Positions 13,629 through 22,925 of a DNA stretch of 64,000 nucleotides are shown piece after piece. The stretch spans positions 1,984,001-2,048,000 of the forward strand of contig NZ_CP089095.1 in NCBI RefSeq assembly GCF_021172145.1, written 5' to 3'. This DNA comes from Flavobacterium cyclinae. Lineage in GTDB: Bacteria; Bacteroidota; Bacteroidia; Flavobacteriales; Flavobacteriaceae. Each line of letters begins with the position of its first letter. The stretch's first letter is position 1. Made by a program: the position numbers and the translations under genes. The notes beneath the pieces are model-generated. The model was not told the origin of the DNA and searched no databases. It was given only the letters and a program-made list of their open reading frames with translations.

Positions 13629-16031
13629 ATGAAAACAGCAACAACATCGGAAGTAGTTTCTTTTGAAGATTTTAAAAAAGAAGTCATTAACGATTATAAA
13701 ATCGCCCGAATCAGTAGAGAATGTAGCCTTCTTGGAAGAAAAGAAGTACTTACTGGTAAAGCAAAGTTCGGAATTTTTGGTGATGGTAAAGAAGTACCGC
13801 AATTAGCCATGGCAAAAGCATTTCAAAACGGTGATTTTCGTTCAGGATATTACCGTGACCAAACCTTTATGATGGCAATTGGCGCTTTAAATATTGAGCA
13901 ATTTTTCGCTGGGTTATATGGCCATACAGATATTAATTTTGACCCAATGAGTGCTGGACGTCAAATGGGTGGTCACTTTGCTACGCATTCTTTAGACGAA
14001 AACGGAAATTGGAACAACTTAACTCAACAAAAGAATTCGAGTTCTGATATCTCTCCTACCGCTGGGCAAATGCCTCGTTTGTTAGGATTGGCTCAGGCTT
14101 CAAAAATATATAGAAATGTATCAGGTATCAACCAAACCAACTTCTCCGAAAACGGAAACGAAGTAGCTTGGGGAACTATCGGAAATGCTTCAACTTCTGA
14201 AGGATTATTCTTCGAAACCATCAACGCTGCCGGTGTTTTACAAGTACCAATGGTAATGAGTGTTTGGGACGACGAATATGGGATTTCAGTTCATGCTCGC
14301 CATCAAACTACAAAAGAAAACATCTCTGAAATCTTAAAAGGTTTCCAACGTGATGAAAATACAAAAGGGTATGAAATTTTACGTGTTAAAGGTTGGGATT
14401 ACCCAAGCTTAGTAGAAACGTATCAAAAAGCTTCTCAAATTGCACGTGAAGAACATGTACCAGTTTTAGTTCACGTTCAAGAATTAACGCAACCACAAGG
14501 TCACTCTACTTCTGGAAGTCACGAACGTTATAAAAATGCTGAACGTTTGGCTTGGGAAGCAGAATTTGATTGTATCGCAAAGATGAAAACTTGGTTAATT
14601 GAAAACAATATCGCTACTTCAGAAGAACTAGATGAAATTGATAACCAAGCTAAAAAAGATGTTTTAGAAGGTAAAAAAGCGGCTTGGACCAACTTTACTA
14701 CTCCAATTAAAGCAGAACAACAAGATTTAGTTGCTCTATTAAACACCATCGCTTCACAAAGTGAAAACAAAGTGTTTATTGAAAAAATTGCTAATGATAT
14801 TGCTTCAATAAAAGAACCTATTCGTAAAGATATTTTAGTAGCGGCACGTAAAGTGTTACGAATGATTATAAAAGAAAATTCTCGAACTAATTTGGCGTCT
14901 TGGATTGAAAATTATACAGAAAAAATTCAACCTAAATTCAGTTCGCATTTATTTTCTCAATCAGATAAAAACGTATTAAAAACCAAAGAAGTAGCTCCAA
15001 CATACGATGCAACAGCTGAAGATGTAGATGCTCGTTTGGTTTTAAGAGATAACTTTGATGCTATCTTTTCTAAATATCCAGAAACGTTAATTTTTGGTGA
15101 GGATTCTGGAAATATTGGTGACGTAAACCAAGGTTTGGAAGGCATGCAAGAAAAATACGGAGAATTACGTGTTGCCGATGTCGGAATTCGTGAAGCTACA
15201 ATTTTAGGTCAAGGAATTGGAATGGCAATGAGAGGATTACGTCCAATTGCTGAGATTCAATATTTAGATTATTTGTTGTATGCTATTCAAATCATGAGTG
15301 ATGATTTAGCTACATTACAATATAGAACCGCTGGTCGTCAAAAAGCACCTTTAATCATCAGAACTCGTGGTCACCGTTTAGAAGGTGTTTGGCATTCGGG
15401 TTCTCCTATGGGAATGATTATCAATGCAATTAGAGGGATTCACGTTTTGGTTCCAAGAAACATGACCAAAGCTGCAGGTTTTTACAACACTTTATTAGAA
15501 ACTGACGAACCTGCATTAGTTGTAGAATGTTTGAATGGTTATCGTTTAAAAGAAAAAATGCCAACCAACTTAGGCGAATTCAAAACACCTATCGGAGTTG
15601 TTGAAACTATAAAACAAGGAATGGATATTACCTTAGTTTCTTACGGTTCTACATTGCGCTTAGTAGAACAAGCGGCAAATGAATTAGAATCTGTTGGAAT
15701 TAGCGCTGAAATCATTGACATTCAATCGTTACTTCCTTTCGATATTAATCATGACATCGTAAAATCGGTAGCAAAAACAAATCGTTTGTTAGTAATTGAT
15801 GAAGACGTTCCTGGTGGAGCAAGCGCTTATATTTTACAAGAAATTGTAGAAAATCAAAACGCTTATAAACATTTAGATAGCGCTCCTCAAACATTAGCTT
15901 CAAAAGCACACCGACCAGCTTACGGAACAGACGGCGATTACTTCTCAAAACCTTCTGCAGAAGACATTTTTGAAAAAGTTTACGCTATTATGAACGAGGC
16001 AAATCCAACAAAATATCCAAGTTTATATTAA
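13629..16031 (+). CDS. 2-oxoacid dehydrogenase E1, fused alpha and beta subunits
   Basis: 800 residues. The alpha-type half (about 1-390) is joined by a helical linker to a beta-type transketolase-like half (about 470-800, from RLVLRDNFDAIF...FGEDSGNIGDVNQG). It is the ThDP-dependent decarboxylase of a branched-chain 2-oxoacid (2-oxoisovalerate) or pyruvate dehydrogenase complex and feeds acyl groups to a lipoyl E2. The ThDP site is a variant: GNASTSEG replaces GDGxxxEG, and the later Asn segment reads DDEYGIS. No E2 or E3 gene is adjacent. The fused form is common in Bacteroidetes and usually annotated as branched-chain, but the substrate cannot be fixed from sequence. Confidence 0.88.
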   Translation: MKTATTSEVVSFEDFKKEVINDYKIARISRECSLLGRKEVLTGKAKFGIFGDGKEVPQLAMAKAFQNGDFRSGYYRDQTFMMAIGALNIEQFFAGLYGHTDINFDPMSAGRQMGGHFATHSLDENGNWNNLTQQKNSSSDISPTAGQMPRLLGLAQASKIYRNVSGINQTNFSENGNEVAWGTIGNASTSEGLFFETINAAGVLQVPMVMSVWDDEYGISVHARHQTTKENISEILKGFQRDENTKGYEILRVKGWDYPSLVETYQKASQIAREEHVPVLVHVQELTQPQGHSTSGSHERYKNAERLAWEAEFDCIAKMKTWLIENNIATSEELDEIDNQAKKDVLEGKKAAWTNFTTPIKAEQQDLVALLNTIASQSENKVFIEKIANDIASIKEPIRKDILVAARKVLRMIIKENSRTNLASWIENYTEKIQPKFSSHLFSQSDKNVLKTKEVAPTYDATAEDVDARLVLRDNFDAIFSKYPETLIFGEDSGNIGDVNQGLEGMQEKYGELRVADVGIREATILGQGIGMAMRGLRPIAEIQYLDYLLYAIQIMSDDLATLQYRTAGRQKAPLIIRTRGHRLEGVWHSGSPMGMIINAIRGIHVLVPRNMTKAAGFYNTLLETDEPALVVECLNGYRLKEKMPTNLGEFKTPIGVVETIKQGMDITLVSYGSTLRLVEQAANELESVGISAEIIDIQSLLPFDINHDIVKSVAKTNRLLVIDEDVPGGASAYILQEIVENQNAYKHLDSAPQTLASKAHRPAYGTDGDYFSKPSAEDIFEKVYAIMNEANPTKYPSLY

Positions 16032-16036
16032 AAAAT

Positions 16037-16068
16037 TTGGTTATTCAAAAATTAATTACAAATATTTG
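16037..16068 (+). promoter_or_regulatory. Probable promoter of the trp operon leader
   Basis: TTG at 16037-16039, a 21-base spacer, then AATATTTG at 16061-16068, one mismatch from TAnnTTTG. It lies 17 bases upstream of the leader-peptide ATG, so transcription would begin just before the leader. Confidence 0.5.
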
Positions 16069-16085
16069 CATATACAATTAAGAAA

Positions 16086-16142
16086 ATGATTTCAATTTTA
16101 AACAATACTTGGTGGTGGTCTAACTTACGTCAAACGTCGTGA
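16086..16142 (+). CDS. trpL: trp operon leader peptide (three consecutive Trp codons)
   Basis: An 18-codon ORF, MISILNNTWWWSNLRQTS, ends at TGA 16140-16142. Codons 9-11 are TGG TGG TGG. Trp is one of the rarest residues, and the ORF sits between a promoter-like site and a strong terminator just before trpE. This is the layout of ribosome-mediated attenuation: when charged tRNA-Trp is scarce the ribosome stalls on the Trp run and the terminator does not form. The gene is too short for normal gene finders. Naming it trpL is by analogy. Confidence 0.85.
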   Translation: MISILNNTWWWSNLRQTS

Positions 16143-16182
16143 GCGAAACCTGCTATAGTATAATTTAAAACCAAATACATAG

Positions 16183-16217
16183 AAAAGGCTTGTCAATCAC
16201 GACAAGCCTTTTTTTAT
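16183..16217 (+). terminator. trp attenuator terminator
   Basis: AAGGCTTGTC (16185-16194), loop AATCAC, GACAAGCCTT (16201-16210), then a run of T. This is a 10-bp perfect stem, extended by flanking A/T pairs, ending about 20 bases before the trpE ATG. By eye I find only weak antiterminator candidates: 16139-16144 (GTGAGC) with 16188-16193 (GCTTGT) using G-U pairs. In addition, TACTTGGT (16106-16113) in the Trp-codon region can pair with ACCAAATA (16170-16177) at 7 of 8 positions. Confidence 0.88.
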
Positions 16218-16237
16218 TGTCAAAAATTAAATCAAAT

Positions 16238-17638
16238 ATGAAAAAATATAAATTACATACCCACTACAAACAAATTCTAGCCGACACCATTACACCAGTG
16301 AGTATTTACTTGAAGATTCGCGATAAATTTCCAAACAGTATTCTTTTGGAGAGTTCTGATTATCATGCGAATGACAACAGTTTTTCGTATATCTGTTTTA
16401 ATCCAATTGCATCAATAAAAGTAGAAAACAGAAAGATTGAAACACAATTACCAGATGGTTTTTCAGAAATTATCCCAATTGATGCTGATGTTAATGTTGC
16501 TAAAGAAATCGAAAACTTTTCAAATCAATTTGAAACAGAAAAGTCAGATTTTAAATTCATAACACAAGGATTATTTGGTTATTTAGCTTATGATTCGATT
16601 CAATATTTTGAAAAAGTATCAATTGCAAAAAAATCAACAGAAAACGAAATTCCTGAAATCTTTTACGCTGTTTATCAGAATATAATCGCAATCAATCATT
16701 TTAAAAACGAAGCGTATATATTCTGTCATAGTGTTGACGGAAGCAACAATATAGCTGAAATCGAACAATTATTTCAAGCGAAAAACTTTGCTTCATTCTC
16801 CTTCCAAAAATCAGGAAACGGAACTTCTAACTTAACTGATGACGAATTCAAAAATTATGTTACATTAGCCAAAAAACATTGTTTACGTGGTGAAGTTTTT
16901 CAATTGGTTTTATCTAGAAGATTTTCTCAAGATTTCAAAGGTGATGAATTCAATGTGTATCGTGCTTTACGAAGTATCAATCCTTCACCTTATTTGTTTT
17001 ATTTCGATTACGGAAATTTCAAAATATTTGGTTCATCGCCTGAAGCACAATTGGTTATCAAAAACAATCTTGCTGAAATTCATCCTATCGCTGGTACATT
17101 CAAACGCACAGGAAACGACGAACAAGATGCCGAATTAGCTAAAAAATTAGGCGAAGACACCAAAGAAAACAGCGAACACGTTATGTTAGTCGATTTAGCT
17201 AGAAATGATTTAAGCAGAAGCTGTAACGAAGTGAAAGTAGAAAAATACAAGGAAGTCCAATTTTTCTCTCACGTAATTCATTTGGTTTCAAAAGTATCAG
17301 GAAAATTAAAAGAAAATCATACTTTTATGGAGTTAGTTGCTAAAACTTTTCCAGCCGGAACACTAACTGGTGCTCCAAAAATAAAAGCTATGGAATTGAT
17401 TGAAAACATTGAAAAAACCAACAGAAGTTTTTATGGTGGCGCCATCGGAGTTTTGGATTTTGAAGGGAATTTCAATCACGCTATTATGATTCGTTCTTTT
17501 TTGAGTAAAAATCATACTTTACATTTTCGGGCGGGAGCCGGAATTGTAGAAAGTTCCTCAGAAGAAAACGAAATGCAAGAAGTTTATAATAAATTAGGAG
17601 CATTACAAAAAGCATTAGATTTAGCAGAAAACATATAA
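16238..17638 (+). CDS. trpE: Anthranilate synthase component I
   Basis: Chorismate to anthranilate, using ammonia from TrpG. It catalyses the first committed step of Trp synthesis. 466 residues from the ATG at 16238. A longer in-frame reading from TTG 16190 is rejected because it begins inside the attenuator stem. The LLESS motif near residue 37 matches the Trp feedback-inhibition site of TrpE proteins. The chorismate-binding C-terminal half carries PSPYLFYFDYG, IAGTFKRTG, VDLARNDLSR and FPAGTLTGAPK. It is followed by a 171-base gap to trpG that holds a partial palindromic repeat. Presence with trpG and the other trp genes excludes pabB. Confidence 0.95.
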   Translation: MKKYKLHTHYKQILADTITPVSIYLKIRDKFPNSILLESSDYHANDNSFSYICFNPIASIKVENRKIETQLPDGFSEIIPIDADVNVAKEIENFSNQFETEKSDFKFITQGLFGYLAYDSIQYFEKVSIAKKSTENEIPEIFYAVYQNIIAINHFKNEAYIFCHSVDGSNNIAEIEQLFQAKNFASFSFQKSGNGTSNLTDDEFKNYVTLAKKHCLRGEVFQLVLSRRFSQDFKGDEFNVYRALRSINPSPYLFYFDYGNFKIFGSSPEAQLVIKNNLAEIHPIAGTFKRTGNDEQDAELAKKLGEDTKENSEHVMLVDLARNDLSRSCNEVKVEKYKEVQFFSHVIHLVSKVSGKLKENHTFMELVAKTFPAGTLTGAPKIKAMELIENIEKTNRSFYGGAIGVLDFEGNFNHAIMIRSFLSKNHTLHFRAGAGIVESSSEENEMQEVYNKLGALQKALDLAENI

Positions 17639-17688
17639 ACAAGTGCAAGAACAAGTTCAAGAACAAAAACAAAAATCAAGTACAAATT

Positions 17689-17711
17689 GTCAAGTCGAGC
17701 GAAGTCGAGAC
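17689..17711. repeat. Partial palindromic intergenic repeat between trpE and trpG
   Basis: TGTCAAGTCGAGCGAAGTCG followed by AGA: one half of the element seen complete at 19463-19519 (shared TCGAGCG and AGTCGAGA cores). It can fold as AGTC...GACT with the same two-base bulge seen there. The rest of this 171-base gap is an A-rich, CAAG-rich stretch with no gene. Confidence 0.65.
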
Positions 17712-17809
17712 TTTTTAAATTTATCAAATTTCTAAAATCTGTGTTTTAAAAAAAAGAACTTGAATTTTGAAATTGAATTTGCCCTTGAAATTGAAAAAAA
17801 ATTAAAGAA

Positions 17810-18373
17810 ATGAAAATAGCAGTTATAGACAATTACGATAGTTTTACATATAATTTGGTTCACTATTTAGAAGATTTGAACGCTGAAGTAACCGTTTTCA
17901 GAAACGACGAGTTTGAATTAAATGAATTGGAAAAATTTGATAAAATTCTACTTTCTCCAGGACCAGGAATACCTGATGAAGCGGGTTTACTAAAAGATGT
18001 GATAAAAAAATACGCTTCTTCAAAAAGTATTTTTGGTGTATGCCTTGGTTTGCAAGCAATTGGTGAAGTTTTCGGAGGAAAATTAACCAACTTAGAAAAA
18101 GTCTATCATGGTGTAGCTACAAAAGTTACTAAAAATGAAGATGATTTTATTTTTAATGATTTACCTAACGAATTCGAAGTTGGGCGTTACCATTCTTGGG
18201 TCGTTTCAAATGAAAACCTTCCAGAAGATTTAATCGTAACTTCTACTGATGAAAACGGTCAAATCATGTCGATGAAACACGCTCATTTTGATATTCGAGG
18301 TGTTCAATATCATCCAGAAAGCGTTTTAACGCCTTACGGAAAAAAAATCCTAGAGAATTGGCTTAGCCATTAA
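17810..18373 (+). CDS. trpG: Anthranilate synthase component II (glutamine amidotransferase)
   Basis: 187 residues, class I glutamine amidotransferase that hydrolyses glutamine and passes ammonia to TrpE. The nucleophile cysteine lies in GVCLGLQAIGE (near residue 80). The oxyanion segment SPGPGIPDEAG and the His-Glu pair in HPESVLTP are present. The N-terminus IDNYDSFTYNLVHY is canonical. In some bacteria the same subunit also serves PabB. Only the trp context is visible here. Confidence 0.95.
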   Translation: MKIAVIDNYDSFTYNLVHYLEDLNAEVTVFRNDEFELNELEKFDKILLSPGPGIPDEAGLLKDVIKKYASSKSIFGVCLGLQAIGEVFGGKLTNLEKVYHGVATKVTKNEDDFIFNDLPNEFEVGRYHSWVVSNENLPEDLIVTSTDENGQIMSMKHAHFDIRGVQYHPESVLTPYGKKILENWLSH

Positions 18374-18403
18374 TTAGCAACAACATACAGGCTAAATTTC
18401 TTG

Positions 18404-18428
18404 CTTCACTAAAACAAAATTAGTGAAG
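18404..18428 (+). other. Perfect hairpin in the trpG-trpD gap
   Basis: CTTCACTAA - AACAAAA - TTAGTGAAG: a 9-bp stem with a 7-base loop, 38 bases before the trpD start. No T-run follows, so it is not a classic terminator. It may stabilise or process the mRNA. It is unrelated in sequence to the neighbouring palindromic repeats. Confidence 0.6.
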
Positions 18429-18465
18429 TACAGCCCAACTTATGTCTAATTTTAAAATTAAAAAA

Positions 18466-19458
18466 ATGAAAAATATATTAAATCGTTTAATTCAACACGA
18501 AATCTTAACTAAAGAGGAAGCTAAAGATGTTTTGGTCAATATTTCTTCAGGAAGTTACAATCCGAGTCAAATTGCAGCATTTATGACGGTTTACATGATG
18601 CGAAGCATTACCATTGAAGAACTAGCTGGTTTACGTGAAGCTTTGTTGGAATTGTGTATTCCTGTTGATTTTTCCGCCTACAATACCATCGATTTGTGTG
18701 GAACGGGTGGAGATGGTAAAGACACGTTCAATATTTCCACTTTAGCTTCTTTCATCGTAGCTGGAGCAGGAATTAAAGTCGCGAAACATGGAAATTACGG
18801 TGTTTCTTCGATTTCAGGATCGAGCAATGTAATGGAAAAAATGGGCGTAAAATTCACAAATGATATTAGTTTTTTGACCAAGTCTATCGAAGAAACCAAT
18901 ATTGCCATTCTTCATGCTCCACTCTTCCACCCTGCTATGAAAAATGTTGGACCAATTCGAAAAGAACTTGGTGTAAAAACGTTTTTTAATATGTTGGGAC
19001 CAATGGTAAATCCTTCCTTTCCAAAAAATCAAATGGTGGGAGTTTTTAGTTTGGAATTAGCGCGAATGTATGCCTATTTATATCAAAACACTACTACCAA
19101 CTACTCCATTTTACACGGATTAAGTGGTTTTGACGAAGTTTCCTTAACCGATGAAGTAAAATTAATTTCTAATACATCCGAACAAATCTTAAAACCAACA
19201 GATTTTAAACTTCCCGAATGTAAATTAGAAACTATCAAAGGCGGAACAACTGTTGATGAATCAGCTAAAATTTTCTACGATGTCATTTCTGGAAAAGGAA
19301 CAACGGCTCAAAACAATGTTGTTTGCGCTAATGCAGCCATCGCCATTCAAACGGTTGAAAAATTAAATTATGATGAAGCTTTAGCCAAAGCGCAAGAAAG
19401 TTTAACCAGCGGAAAAGCATTGGAGAAATTGAAAAAATTAATCGCAATAAGTAACTAA
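18466..19458 (+). CDS. trpD: Anthranilate phosphoribosyltransferase
   Basis: Joins anthranilate to PRPP to give phosphoribosyl-anthranilate. About 330 residues from the ATG at 18466 (MKNILNRLIQHE...), which matches the usual N-terminus. An in-frame ATG at 18442 would add eight residues (MSNFKIKK) and cannot be fully excluded. The PRPP-binding GTGGDGKDTFNIST, the KHGNYGVSSISGSSN loop and the anthranilate-site RKELGVKTFFNMLGP are all present. It is followed by a 74-base gap that holds a palindromic repeat before trpC. Confidence 0.94.
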   Translation: MKNILNRLIQHEILTKEEAKDVLVNISSGSYNPSQIAAFMTVYMMRSITIEELAGLREALLELCIPVDFSAYNTIDLCGTGGDGKDTFNISTLASFIVAGAGIKVAKHGNYGVSSISGSSNVMEKMGVKFTNDISFLTKSIEETNIAILHAPLFHPAMKNVGPIRKELGVKTFFNMLGPMVNPSFPKNQMVGVFSLELARMYAYLYQNTTTNYSILHGLSGFDEVSLTDEVKLISNTSEQILKPTDFKLPECKLETIKGGTTVDESAKIFYDVISGKGTTAQNNVVCANAAIAIQTVEKLNYDEALAKAQESLTSGKALEKLKKLIAISN

Positions 19459-19462
19459 AATT

Positions 19463-19519
19463 TGTCAGTTCGAGCGCAATCGAGAACTTATGAACATCTC
19501 GACTGCGCTCGATGTGACA
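19463..19519. repeat. Palindromic intergenic repeat between trpD and trpC
   Basis: TGTCA...TGACA ends enclose two arms, TCGAGCGCAATCGAGA (19470-19485) and TCTCGACTGCGCTCGA (19497-19512), reverse complements at 15 of 16 positions. Each arm can also fold on itself with a two-base bulge, so either one long hairpin or a three-way junction is possible. The high GC contrasts with its surroundings. A related partial copy lies at 17689, and an element of the same design but different sequence lies at 51174. I infer a REP-like mobile repeat. Confidence 0.75.
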
Positions 19520-19532
19520 CAAAATAATAACT

Positions 19533-20318
19533 ATGAATATTTTAGATAAAATCATCACCGACAAAAAACGTGAAGTCGAACTAAAGAAAAGCATCATTCC
19601 CGTTTCGCAATTAGAAACTTCTGTTTTATTCAATTCTCGAACCTATTCAATGAGTAAGTTATTAAAAAACAGCTTTTCAGGAATTATTGCGGAGCATAAA
19701 CGTCGTTCACCATCGAAATCGGTTATCAATAATAATCATTCCGTTGAAGATGTGGTTTTAGGTTATCAAAATGCTGGAGTATGCGGAATTTCCGTTTTGA
19801 CGGATGCTAAATATTTTGGTGGAAGTTTAGATGATTTATTATTAGCGAAATCTTCGGTAAATGTTCCGTTGTTACGAAAAGAATTCATTGTTGACGAATA
19901 CCAAATTTTAGAAGCCAAAGCCCACGGAGCCGATGTAATCTTACTAATTGCAGCGGTTTTAACTCGAGAAAAAATAAAGCAACTTTCAGAATTTGCACAA
20001 AGTTTAGGTTTAGAAGTATTGTTAGAAGTTCACAATTTGGAAGAATTGGAAAAATCGATTATGCCAAGTTTGGATATGATTGGCGTGAACAATCGCAATT
20101 TAAAAACTTTTGAAGTGAGTTTAGATTACAGCAAAGAATTAGCTACTAAAATTCCAGACGAATTTGTAAAAGTATCTGAAAGTGGCATTAGTTCAATTGA
20201 GGCTGTAAATGAATTGCAACAATTTGGCTATCAAGGCTTTTTAACGGGAGAACATTTCATGAAAACCGAAAATCCTGGTTTGGAAGCTAAACGATTCATT
20301 CAAAAACTAATGTCATGA
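19533..20318 (+). CDS. trpC: Indole-3-glycerol phosphate synthase
   Basis: Closes the ring of carboxyphenylamino-deoxyribulose phosphate to indole-3-glycerol phosphate. 261-residue TIM barrel. The N-terminal LDKIITDKKREV helix is typical. The catalytic-site lysine and phosphate-loop residues lie in IIAEHKRRSPSK, KEFIVDEYQI and GVNNRNLKTFEV, with a VSESGISS phosphate-binding motif late in the chain. The last four bases overlap the trpF start (ATGA). Confidence 0.95.
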   Translation: MNILDKIITDKKREVELKKSIIPVSQLETSVLFNSRTYSMSKLLKNSFSGIIAEHKRRSPSKSVINNNHSVEDVVLGYQNAGVCGISVLTDAKYFGGSLDDLLLAKSSVNVPLLRKEFIVDEYQILEAKAHGADVILLIAAVLTREKIKQLSEFAQSLGLEVLLEVHNLEELEKSIMPSLDMIGVNNRNLKTFEVSLDYSKELATKIPDEFVKVSESGISSIEAVNELQQFGYQGFLTGEHFMKTENPGLEAKRFIQKLMS

Positions 20319-20950
20319 AAAATATAAAACTAAAAATTTGTGGCATGAAAGATTCAGAAAACATCATGGAAATTTCTGCTTTACAACCTGATTATCTTGG
20401 TTTTATCTTTTGGGAAAAATCAAAACGAAATATGACTTTAGATGTTATTCCTGAACTTCTTGAAACTACAAAAAGAGTTGGGGTTTTTGTGAATGCGTCC
20501 ATACAAGAAATTGCTTCGAAAATTAATCAATACCAATTAGACATCATTCAATTACATGGAAATGAGTCGGTTATTTTTTGTAAAAACGTAAAAAAACTCG
20601 GTGTTGAAGTCATCAAAGTTTTTTCTATGGATTCGAATTTCAATTTTTCTGTGGTTAAAGATTATGTATTAGCTGTCGATTATTTTCTTTTTGATACCAA
20701 AGGAAAATTACCGGGAGGAAATGGCATTACTTTCGATTGGAATGTCTTGGAAAACTATCACTTTAATGTTCCGTATTTTTTAAGTGGTGGAATTGGAACA
20801 ACAGAAATTGACGGATTAAAAGAATTTCTAAAATCACCCGGTGCAAAAAAATGCTACGCAATTGATGTTAACAGTCGTTTTGAGAAAAAACCTGGAATCA
20901 AAAATAAAATCAAATTACAAAAATTTAAAAAATTGCTATATGAAATATAA
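20315..20950 (+). CDS. trpF: Phosphoribosylanthranilate isomerase
   Basis: Amadori rearrangement of phosphoribosyl-anthranilate, acting just before TrpC in the pathway. 211-residue TIM barrel. The general-base cysteine is in KLKICGMKD (about residue 8), and the general-acid aspartate lies in LFDTKG (near residue 128). The phosphate-binding FLSGGIG segment is present. It overlaps trpC by 4 bases and trpB by 11 bases, so all three are translationally coupled. Confidence 0.94.
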
Positions 20951-22130
20951 TGTTGATGAAAACGGATTTTACGGAAAATTTGGAGGTGCTTTTATTCCAG
21001 AAATGTTGTATCCCAATGTTGAAGAATTAAAAGTAAACTATCTTAAAATAATGACTGAACCTTCTTTCCAAGAAGAGTTTAACGACTTATTACAACAATT
21101 TGTAGGTCGCCCAACGCCTCTGTATTTTGCCAAACGCTTATCCGAAAAATACAATACCAAAATCTACTTGAAGCGAGAAGATTTATGTCACACTGGAGCA
21201 CACAAAATCAACAACACCATCGGTCAAATTTTAGTTGCCAAGCGTTTAGGAAAAACCAGAATTATTGCAGAAACTGGCGCAGGACAACACGGCGTGGCAA
21301 CGGCAACGGTTTGTGCTCTAATGGGATTAGAATGTATTGTGTATATGGGTGAAGTTGATATTAAACGTCAGGCTCCAAATGTAGCTCGCATGAAAATGTT
21401 AGGCGCAGAAGTTCGTGCTGCAACTTCGGGGTCAAAAACTTTAAAAGATGCTACAAACGAAGCCATTCGCGATTGGATTAATAACCCAATTGATACGTTT
21501 TATATTATAGGTTCTGTGGTTGGACCTCATCCTTATCCTGATATGGTGGCACGCTTTCAAAGTGTTATTTCCAAAGAAATTAAATCCCAACTTTTAAAAC
21601 AAGAAGGCAGAGAAAATCCAGATTACGTAATTGCTTGTGTGGGTGGCGGAAGTAATGCTGCTGGTGCTTTTTACGAATTTTTAGATGAAGAATCAGTTAA
21701 ATTAATTGCTGTGGAAGCTGCAGGACATGGCGTTGATTCAGGTGAAAGTGCTGCGACATCTGTTTTAGGAAAAATTGGAATTATTCACGGAAGTAAAACC
21801 TTATTAATGCAAACAGAAGACGGACAAATTACCGAACCTTATTCAATTTCAGCAGGTTTAGATTATCCTGGAGTTGGACCACTTCATGCTCATTTACACG
21901 ATACTAAAAGAGCAGAATTCATTGCAATAACAGATTCCGAAGCCATGCAAGCTGGATTAGAAGTATCAAAAACAGAAGGCATTATTCCAGCCATTGAAAC
22001 GGCACATGCTTTTTCAGTTTTGGATAAAAAACAATTCCAACCTAATGATATTGTTGTAATCAACTTATCAGGAAGAGGCGACAAAGATTTAAATACTTAT
22101 ATTGATTATTTTAATTTAAGTGATAAGTAA
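20940..22130 (+). CDS. trpB: Tryptophan synthase beta chain
   Basis: PLP enzyme that condenses indole with serine. 396 residues from the ATG at 20940 ([16 protein letters not shown]), which overlaps the trpF stop. A longer in-frame reading back into trpF lacks support. The PLP lysine is in HTGAHKINN, the substrate loop in [10 protein letters not shown], and the phosphate cup in GGGSNAAG. The C-terminal NLSGRGDKD is canonical. The length is typical of TrpB1-type chains that pair with TrpA. Confidence 0.97.
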
Positions 22131-22163
22131 TTAGTGAATAGTGATTAGCTAAAAACAAAAAAC

Positions 22164-22925
22164 ATGAACAGAATCAACCAAAAATTACAAGAAGATAAAA
22201 AACTGCTTTCTATCTATTTTACAGCAGGATTTCCAAAATTAAACGATACGGTTACCATTATCCAAGAATTGGAGAAAAACGGTGTTGATATGATTGAAAT
22301 TGGGTTACCATTTTCAGATCCGTTAGCCGATGGACCAACCATTCAAGAAAGTTCGACAATTGCAATTGAAAATGGAATGACGACTTCGCTTCTATTTGAG
22401 CAATTAAAAAACATTAGAAAATCGGTTCAAATTCCTTTAATTATAATGGGTTATTTCAATCCGATGATGCAATTTGGAATGGAAAAGTTCTGTCAAAAAT
22501 GCGCTGAAGTTGGGATTGATGGCTTAATTATTCCTGATTTACCACTATTCGTTTACGAAACCGAATACAAGTCGATTTTCGAAAAATACCATTTGAAAAA
22601 CATCTTTTTAATTTCGCCACAAACATCAAACGAACGTATAAAACAAATTGATACAATTTCGGATAGTTTTATTTATATGGTTAGCTCGGCTGCGGTTACT
22701 GGAAGCCAATCTGGTTTTGGTTCAGAGCAAATGGATTATTTCAAAAGAATTTCCGAATTAAAACTAAAAAATCAGCAAATAGTTGGATTTGGAATTAAAG
22801 ACAAAACCACCTTCAATCAAGCAACTGAATTTCAAAAAGGCGCAATCATTGGCAGTGCTTTTATATCGTTTTTAAAATATAATCCAATTTCCAACATCCA
22901 AGAATTTATCAATAAAATATGGTAA
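22164..22925 (+). CDS. trpA: Tryptophan synthase alpha chain
   Basis: Cleaves indole-3-glycerol phosphate to indole, which is channelled to TrpB. 253-residue TIM barrel. The catalytic glutamate is in MIEIGLPFSDPLADGP, and the catalytic aspartate lies in the GLIIPDLP strand. The N-terminal YFTAGFP is canonical. It is the last gene of the trp unit, 33 bases after trpB with no terminator between. An AT-rich inverted repeat follows the stop, but no convincing terminator does, so some transcript may run into the next pair. Confidence 0.95.
   Translation: MNRINQKLQEDKKLLSIYFTAGFPKLNDTVTIIQELEKNGVDMIEIGLPFSDPLADGPTIQESSTIAIENGMTTSLLFEQLKNIRKSVQIPLIIMGYFNPMMQFGMEKFCQKCAEVGIDGLIIPDLPLFVYETEYKSIFEKYHLKNIFLISPQTSNERIKQIDTISDSFIYMVSSAAVTGSQSGFGSEQMDYFKRISELKLKNQQIVGFGIKDKTTFNQATEFQKGAIIGSAFISFLKYNPISNIQEFINKIW

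Follow-up and report, generated by a model that had tools for sequence, protein, structure and literature searches.

A trp operon leader of Flavobacterium cyclinae as a probable ribosome-mediated attenuator of the Bacteroid-trp family with a proposed stop-codon:terminator-loop antiterminator

Introduction

The closest described counterpart of the leader treated here is Bacteroid-trp (RF01692), a family with an entry in Table 1 of a 2010 paper (Weinberg 2010, PMC2864571). It is the leader RNA of the trp operon in Bacteroidetes and has already been read as attenuator-like. In a passage of PMC6414381, Bacteroid-Trp is placed upstream of the trp operon of Flavobacterium psychrophilum and likened to the Escherichia coli attenuator, and a section of PMC9723704 reports strong indications that amino-acid operons of the same species are attenuated through leader peptides. 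Since RF01692 is curated and attenuation was proposed earlier, neither the element nor the general idea of attenuation is new.

The trp leader of E. coli has a Shine-Dalgarno site, and the main partner of its segment 2 is the 5′ arm of the terminator. In mycobacterial leaderless short-ORF attenuators, the leader peptide may start at the very 5′ end of the transcript.

We analyzed a trp leader in a 64-kb stretch of F. cyclinae DNA, called the window below. The locus resembles RF01692 in sequence family, in its Trp-rich leader peptide, and in its site upstream of Bacteroidetes trp genes. The RF01692 model, however, stops at position 16194, before the loop and the 3′ arm of the terminator, and the antiterminator proposed here extends beyond it. 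With the E. coli attenuator the locus shares Trp codons in a leader peptide and a terminator and, by prediction, a protector hairpin and three states set by the ribosome, whereas segment 2 here contains the stop codon and is predicted to pair with the terminator loop and 3′ arm. The likeness to the F. psychrophilum attenuators is that attenuation has been proposed at amino-acid operons; the antiterminator pairing is not given in the portions of PMC9723704 and PMC6414381 that were examined. The mycobacterial systems are similar in the possible start at the 5′ end, which is predicted in some relatives only, but belong to another phylum and respond to another amino acid, and the 5′ UTR predicted in the window is 13 nt long. 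The best reading is a three-state attenuator like that of E. coli in which the antiterminator has another geometry. The locus belongs to RF01692 and, judged from sequence, probably controls the trp operon by ribosome-mediated attenuation of transcription, using a modified antiterminator.

Results

Layout of the leader and the trp operon

The leader, its terminator, and the trp operon are on the plus strand. A pyruvate-dehydrogenase-like E1 gene lies just upstream of the leader and ends at 16031. The leader peptide ORF (MISILNNTWWWSNLRQTS, 16086–16142) has 18 codons, starting at ATG 16086 and ending with UGA at 16140–16142, and leader ORFs also occur in relatives. Three consecutive Trp codons (WWW, TGG at 16110–16118) are the proposed sensor. 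An intrinsic terminator separates this tandem-Trp ORF from trpE (16238–17638), the first gene of trpEGDCFBA (16238–22925), in which trpG, trpD, trpC, trpF, trpB, and trpA follow up to the operon end at 22925. The first-pass annotation had described an 18-codon ORF with three TGG codons and trpE after the leader and terminator, and both are present as described. In the 171-base gap between trpE and trpG (17639–17809), two copies of AAGTCGAG are found at 17692–17709, and no gene of at least 80 aa is listed in the gap.

The region 16066–16194 matches RF01692 over the full model (positions 1–131) in cmscan with 85.4 bits against a gathering score of 49, and, as is typical of the family, the match sits upstream of trp genes. 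Ribosome-mediated trp attenuation, which had been assigned from sequence inspection, is still the best reading, now with a match to a curated family. No Rfam family besides RF01692 reaches its gathering cutoff in the window, and the T-box covariance model gives no match at the gathering threshold there. Matches to Atu_C9, RsaJ, and STnc390 over the terminator or its surroundings were dropped, being below their own cutoffs.

Promoter and start of translation

A putative Bacteroidetes-type promoter lies at 16036–16068, composed of TTTG at 16036–16039 (−33 region) and AATATTTG at 16061–16068 (−7 box). The latter is one base off TAnnTTTG; the exact form is absent from the window promoter. In the relevant section of PMC9723704, the −7 box is placed at −12 to −5. 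The sequence predicts a transcription start at 16073, and since AATATTTG ends 17 nt before the leader ATG, a 5′ UTR of 13 nt is predicted. A sigma-70 scan of 16000–16090 gave no plus-strand site, and an E. coli-type promoter was rejected on this basis. The promoter-like site noted earlier is thus retained as a near match of the Bacteroidetes type, and its E. coli-like version is not found.

Exact TAnnTTTG boxes within 45 nt of the leader ATG are found in 131 of the 171 unique upstream sequences, where mononucleotide shuffles predict 6.1. In 61 of these 131, the distance from the end of the nearest box to the ATG is 4–10 nt, and in 20 it is exactly 4 nt, so that the A of ATG would be the first base of the mRNA. 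Leaderless leader-peptide mRNAs are predicted for those 20 upstream sequences (e.g., loci L024, L029, L040, L043, and L047). No Shine-Dalgarno site is seen by eye before the leader ATG in the window. The A at −3 of this ATG agrees with the start preference of F. johnsoniae, given as A at −3 in a section of PMC6847099.

Terminator and folding of the leader

The intrinsic terminator (16183–16215) consists of a stem of 12 perfect pairs between 16183–16194 and 16201–16212, the loop AAUCAC (16195–16200), and a run of seven U (16209–16215). A perfect terminator with a T run had been called before with 10 pairs; the terminator stands, and the count is corrected to 12. In an alignment of 37 rows, called A1 and described below, 99.7% of the cells of this helix are paired, and 8 of 10 pairs show changes on both sides. 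The leader region as a whole folds with z = −4.67 and its 3′ part with z = −6.0, which is beyond chance.

Two further helices should be noted. An outer stem, AUACU:AGUAU (16105–16109 with 16157–16161), appears in both the fold and the structure line of RF01692. A protector hairpin 1:2, CUUACG:CGUGAG (16124–16129 with 16138–16143), forms with a probability of 0.93–1.00 in folds without a ribosome. On the alignment, covariation in hairpin 1:2 is not clear, and sliding the helix by −3 gave a higher score.

Distribution of the element

RF01692 matches were found in 62 of 150 near genomes (E ≤ 0.001; 60 above the cutoff) and in 36 of 395 genomes of the class (E ≤ 0.01; 18 above the cutoff), the genome of the window being counted in each; both searches used stricter filters, by which weak matches are lost, and the loci drawn from the class-wide search leave out its six weakest matches. 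A second set was taken from the regions upstream of TrpE matches (99 regions in 98 genomes). This set mostly leaves out genomes with an RF01692 locus, as well as G313, G410, and weaker matches. RF01692 matches with E ≤ 0.01 occur in 14 of its genomes, some at another place, again with weak matches lost by the filters.

A short ORF with the pattern W.?W is present in 88 of the 99 TrpE-upstream regions, whereas mononucleotide shuffles average 1.8. The conservation of a Trp-rich ORF in relatives, a check proposed in the first-pass annotation, is borne out by this count. The leader ORFs listed carry WWW or WW in the great majority, W or W.?W being part of the ORF search rule. ORF and terminator occur together in 85 of the 99 trpE upstream regions and at 89 of 90 RF01692 loci, giving 174 of 189 regions in total with some genomes represented twice (L072 and L073 were left out as repeats of L035 and L050). 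The 15 regions without the combination are L061, L104, L109, L113, L118, L127, L129, L137, L143, L155, L160, L162, L170, L177, and L201.

The exact triple motif TCGTGA..GGCTTGTC..TCACGA was searched in named genomes and occurs in at least 117 stretches. Among the 80 loci listed, 70 have a WW leader ORF; these 70 are from Flavobacterium, Winogradskyella, Aquimarina, Olleya, Maribacter, and other taxa, including one Paludibacteraceae metagenome-assembled genome, in which the next gene is trpB-like by eye. Six of the listed loci are named outside Bacteroidota (L227, L238, L240, L250, L265, and L280), and these matches are probably due to chance. In L221, L229, and L277, a trpE-like ORF follows but an ATG-started WW ORF is absent; the match in L229 is close to the end of the stretch (28 bases).

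Several loci differ from the window in coding content or position. L061 (over its whole length) and L209 (830–889, minus strand) have the attenuator scaffold with Lys-rich leaders in place of the Trp codons (MNTWIIKKGKKQYLRRTS and MFISVIKKGKKQYLRKKS, respectively). L209 is a triple-motif locus of Myroides phaeus in which the leader precedes an ORF that is aspartokinase-like by eye. The next ORF in L061, which is truncated, matches an NCBIfam subfamily of aspartate kinase below the cutoff. Both loci give the impression of a trp attenuator that was copied and then adapted to the lysine pathway by recoding.

RF01692-like matches below the cutoff are found in family f55 (L083, L084, L086, L087, L091, and L092). 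These Trp leaders lie on another contig or at another place than the best TrpE match of the genome (e.g., contig C22 versus C12 in G426), suggesting that a second gene may be under Trp-leader control. In eight loci (L064, L066, L067, L068, L074, L079, L080, and L088), RF01692 lies about 1.25–1.5 kb before the TrpE match. The 394-aa ORF between the two in L066 is TrpB-like by eye, suggesting that trpB is probably the first gene of the operons at these eight loci.

Pairing of the stop-codon region with the terminator loop

Segment 2, GUCGUGA (16136–16142), includes the leader stop codon UGA. Its exact complement, UCACGAC (16197–16203), begins with four bases of the terminator loop and continues into the 3′ arm for three bases. 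We propose GUCGUGA and UCACGAC as the 5′ and 3′ strands, respectively, of the antiterminator. The 3′ strand is outside the RF01692 model, since the model ends at 16194.

Alignment A1 holds the window and 36 relatives, picked for this geometry from the 174 elements, and covers families f1, f9, f47, f71, f92, and f48, with 19 rows from genus g1. In A1, 88.1% of the cells of the antiterminator helix are paired, whereas versions slid by 1–3 columns reach at most 60.6%. Changes on both sides are seen in five of its eight pairs, against 2.1 in shuffles that ignore kinship, none of the 500 of which did as well; further pair types occur in an unremarkable number (83 of 500 shuffles). The two stop-codon columns should be noted. 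In the first, G:C occurs in 27 rows, A:U in 6, and G:U in 2, with 2 unpaired, which reflects UGA versus UAA or UAG. Five of the six A:U rows have an in-frame UAA (L064, L066, L068, and L079) or UAG (L057) in the segment, and in the sixth, L067, the called ORF runs past the stop of the segment. In the second column, A:U occurs in 33 rows and G:C in 1 (UAG in L057), with 3 unpaired. The stop codon starts exactly four bases into segment 2 in 29 of the 37 rows. A three-way change is found in L165, where segment 2 is AACGUGA and the terminator arms are AAC and GUU.

At the level of sequence, these observations establish the ORF, the terminator, and an antiterminator complementarity with covariation. 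A stop-codon:terminator-loop antiterminator, supported by covariation and different from the E. coli geometry, is newly proposed here. We found no antiterminator for RF01692 in the literature covered, mostly main texts outside subscription journals and in part excerpts; nor did a search of mostly such papers return a match that combines stop codon, leader peptide, antiterminator, and terminator loop.

The first-pass annotation had pointed to two other pairings, GTGAGC (16139–16144) with GCTTGT (16188–16193) and TACTTGGT with ACCAAATA, and both are present in the sequence. The former was rejected as the switch pairing: 80.6% of its cells in A1 are paired, which equals the shuffled mean, and it shows no covariation, so that an antiterminator of the E. 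coli type on the 5′ arm is not supported by this pairing in A1. The latter was set aside because both the fold and the Rfam structure place its 5′ strand in the outer stem. The accompanying suspicion that the switch differs from that of E. coli gains support from GUCGUGA:UCACGAC.

Swap tests across genera and families

In the swap test, the leader segment of one element per genus (66 genera in 29 families, window included) was scored against its own terminator loop with 4 bases on each side and against the loops of other families. The own loop ranks in the best 10% in 29 of the 66 genera (expected 6.6), and with the stop-codon region alone the own partner does so in 27. With one element per family the figure is 13 of 29 (expected 2.9), and the controls give 0 of 29 (the ORF before the Trp codons) and 2 of 29 (the 40 bases after the terminator). 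Of the 66 genera, 18 have a helix of at least seven pairs linking stop codon and loop, whereas swaps predict 4.0.

After removal of the Flavobacterium-like families, the own loop is still preferred in 8 and 9 of the 23 remaining families (expected 2.3; controls 0 and 2 of 23). In these 23, the loop with the 3′ arm alone gives 4 (not significant) and the end of the 5′ arm with the loop gives 6, suggesting that the exact Flavobacterium geometry is not class-wide but the use of the loop is. By eye, pairing with loop and 3′ arm is seen in f1, f9, f47, f71, f92, f48, f82, and some others, and pairing with the end of the 5′ arm plus the loop, or with the 5′ arm, in, e.g., f5, f55, f31, and f56. In many other families the leader pairs instead with the 5′ side of the loop.

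These data bear on the classical E. coli geometry, in which segment 2 would pair with the terminator 5′ arm (GUGAGC:GCUUGU or AAGCU:GGCUU) and loop pairing would be secondary. In some families the partner of the leader is indeed the 5′ arm, or the end of that arm together with the loop (e.g., L060, L084, and L086), in many relatives in the genus the loop helix is accompanied by an inner leader:5′-arm contact, and GTGAGC:GCTTGT is paired in most cells, as given above. However, this level is that of shuffles and lacks covariation, and the leader against the 5′ arm alone reaches the best 10% in 12 of 66 genera (p 0.029) and 4 of 29 families, little above or at chance. The window itself ranks at 0.06 among swaps with the loop and 3′ arm, versus 0.89 with the 5′ arm. 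The classical geometry is the strongest competitor of the stop-codon:loop antiterminator, though an unlikely one.

State-dependent folding and proposed mechanism

For folding, the nascent RNA downstream of the ribosome was used as its 3′ end emerges, with the RNA upstream left out. The ribosome was taken to cover the RNA up to 12 bases downstream of where the A-site codon begins. With a stall on Trp codon 1, 2, or 3, the antiterminator of the window forms with a probability of 0.97–1.00 at 3′ ends 16203–16205, whereas without a ribosome its probability is at most 0.07 and the terminator forms. Folding with and without a ribosome, another check put forward in the earlier annotation, is thus in line with a switch. 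With UGA in the A site, the terminator forms and the antiterminator has a probability of 0.00 (0 of 37 rows), a result imposed by leaving segment 2 out of the fold. Among the 37 rows, the antiterminator reaches P ≥ 0.5 in 35 with a stall on the last Trp codon, the exceptions being L053 and L082, and in 8 even without a ribosome. The count of leader:terminator pairs in the 174 stalled elements lacks a null model and was left out of the evidence. At equilibrium, the terminator wins from 3′ ends 16207, 16208, and 16209 with stalls on Trp codons 1, 2, and 3, respectively. In every state, the terminator is the more stable fold after its 3′ arm has fully emerged, which means that the switch has to work as a kinetic race.

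We infer the ribosome positions, the kinetic win of the antiterminator, and Trp as the signal in the F. cyclinae strain, which give the following scheme. When Trp is available, the ribosome would reach UGA at 16140 and cover segment 2 (16136–16142); the terminator (16183–16215) would then form, and transcription would end before trpE. When Trp is short, the ribosome would wait on the UGG codons, where it would break the outer stem (16105–16109 with 16157–16161) and hinder the 5′ strand of hairpin 1:2. Segment 2, thereby freed, would capture UCACGAC as the loop and 3′ arm emerge. The terminator would lose its loop and its closing GUC:GAC pairs, and the polymerase would continue into trpE. In the absence of a ribosome, hairpin 1:2 and the outer stem would hold segment 2, and the terminator would form.

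The equilibrium result also fits a different role of the same pairing, namely a pseudoknot or other loop contact under which the lower part of the terminator stem persists and termination is not prevented or is even aided. Judged from the sequence, the nine lower terminator pairs are compatible with a loop bound to segment 2. On the other hand, hairpin 1:2 holds segment 2 when no ribosome is present, and a ribosome at the stop codon would cover it, given the assumed footprint. This suggests that loop pairing is available mainly when readthrough is wanted, and we regard a loop contact of this kind as improbable, somewhat more so than the classical geometry.

Discussion

The loop match might also be inherited without any function in a switch, for example through a conserved stop context and a conserved terminator. 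Most of the 37 rows are indeed identical at these columns, and the shuffles take no account of kinship. However, matched changes occur in other families (L057, L064, L068, L079, and L165), and the 23 families outside the Flavobacterium-like group fit their own loops better than expected and better than the controls do, which makes mere inheritance very unlikely. Translational coupling or reinitiation at trpE, in place of transcription attenuation, is hardly credible: leader genes close to structural genes have been proposed as helpers of reinitiation in a passage of PMC4833913 that concerns short distances, but 95 bases and a strong terminator lie between UGA at 16142 and the trpE ATG at 16238, and the idea was rejected because this distance is too long.

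The stop-codon:loop antiterminator can be set in a wider reading, which we offer tentatively, with the balance very slightly against it. Across Bacteroidia, the trp attenuator may pair the stop-codon region of the leader with the terminator loop, and in the Flavobacterium lineage also with the start of the 3′ arm. The choice among UGA, UAA, and UAG would then be tied to the loop, since the stop-codon region pairs with it, and one segment would be held in a three-way match with both arms of the terminator. In some species the scaffold may have been copied and recoded with Lys for aspartokinase.

Trp leader ORFs before trpE are common across the class, beyond the reach of the Rfam model. The proposed antiterminator makes the switch step of RF01692 testable by single base changes. 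If the proposal is true, the stop codon of the RF01692 leader would itself serve as a switch strand, and the antiterminator of this attenuator would capture the loop and the 3′ arm of the terminator.
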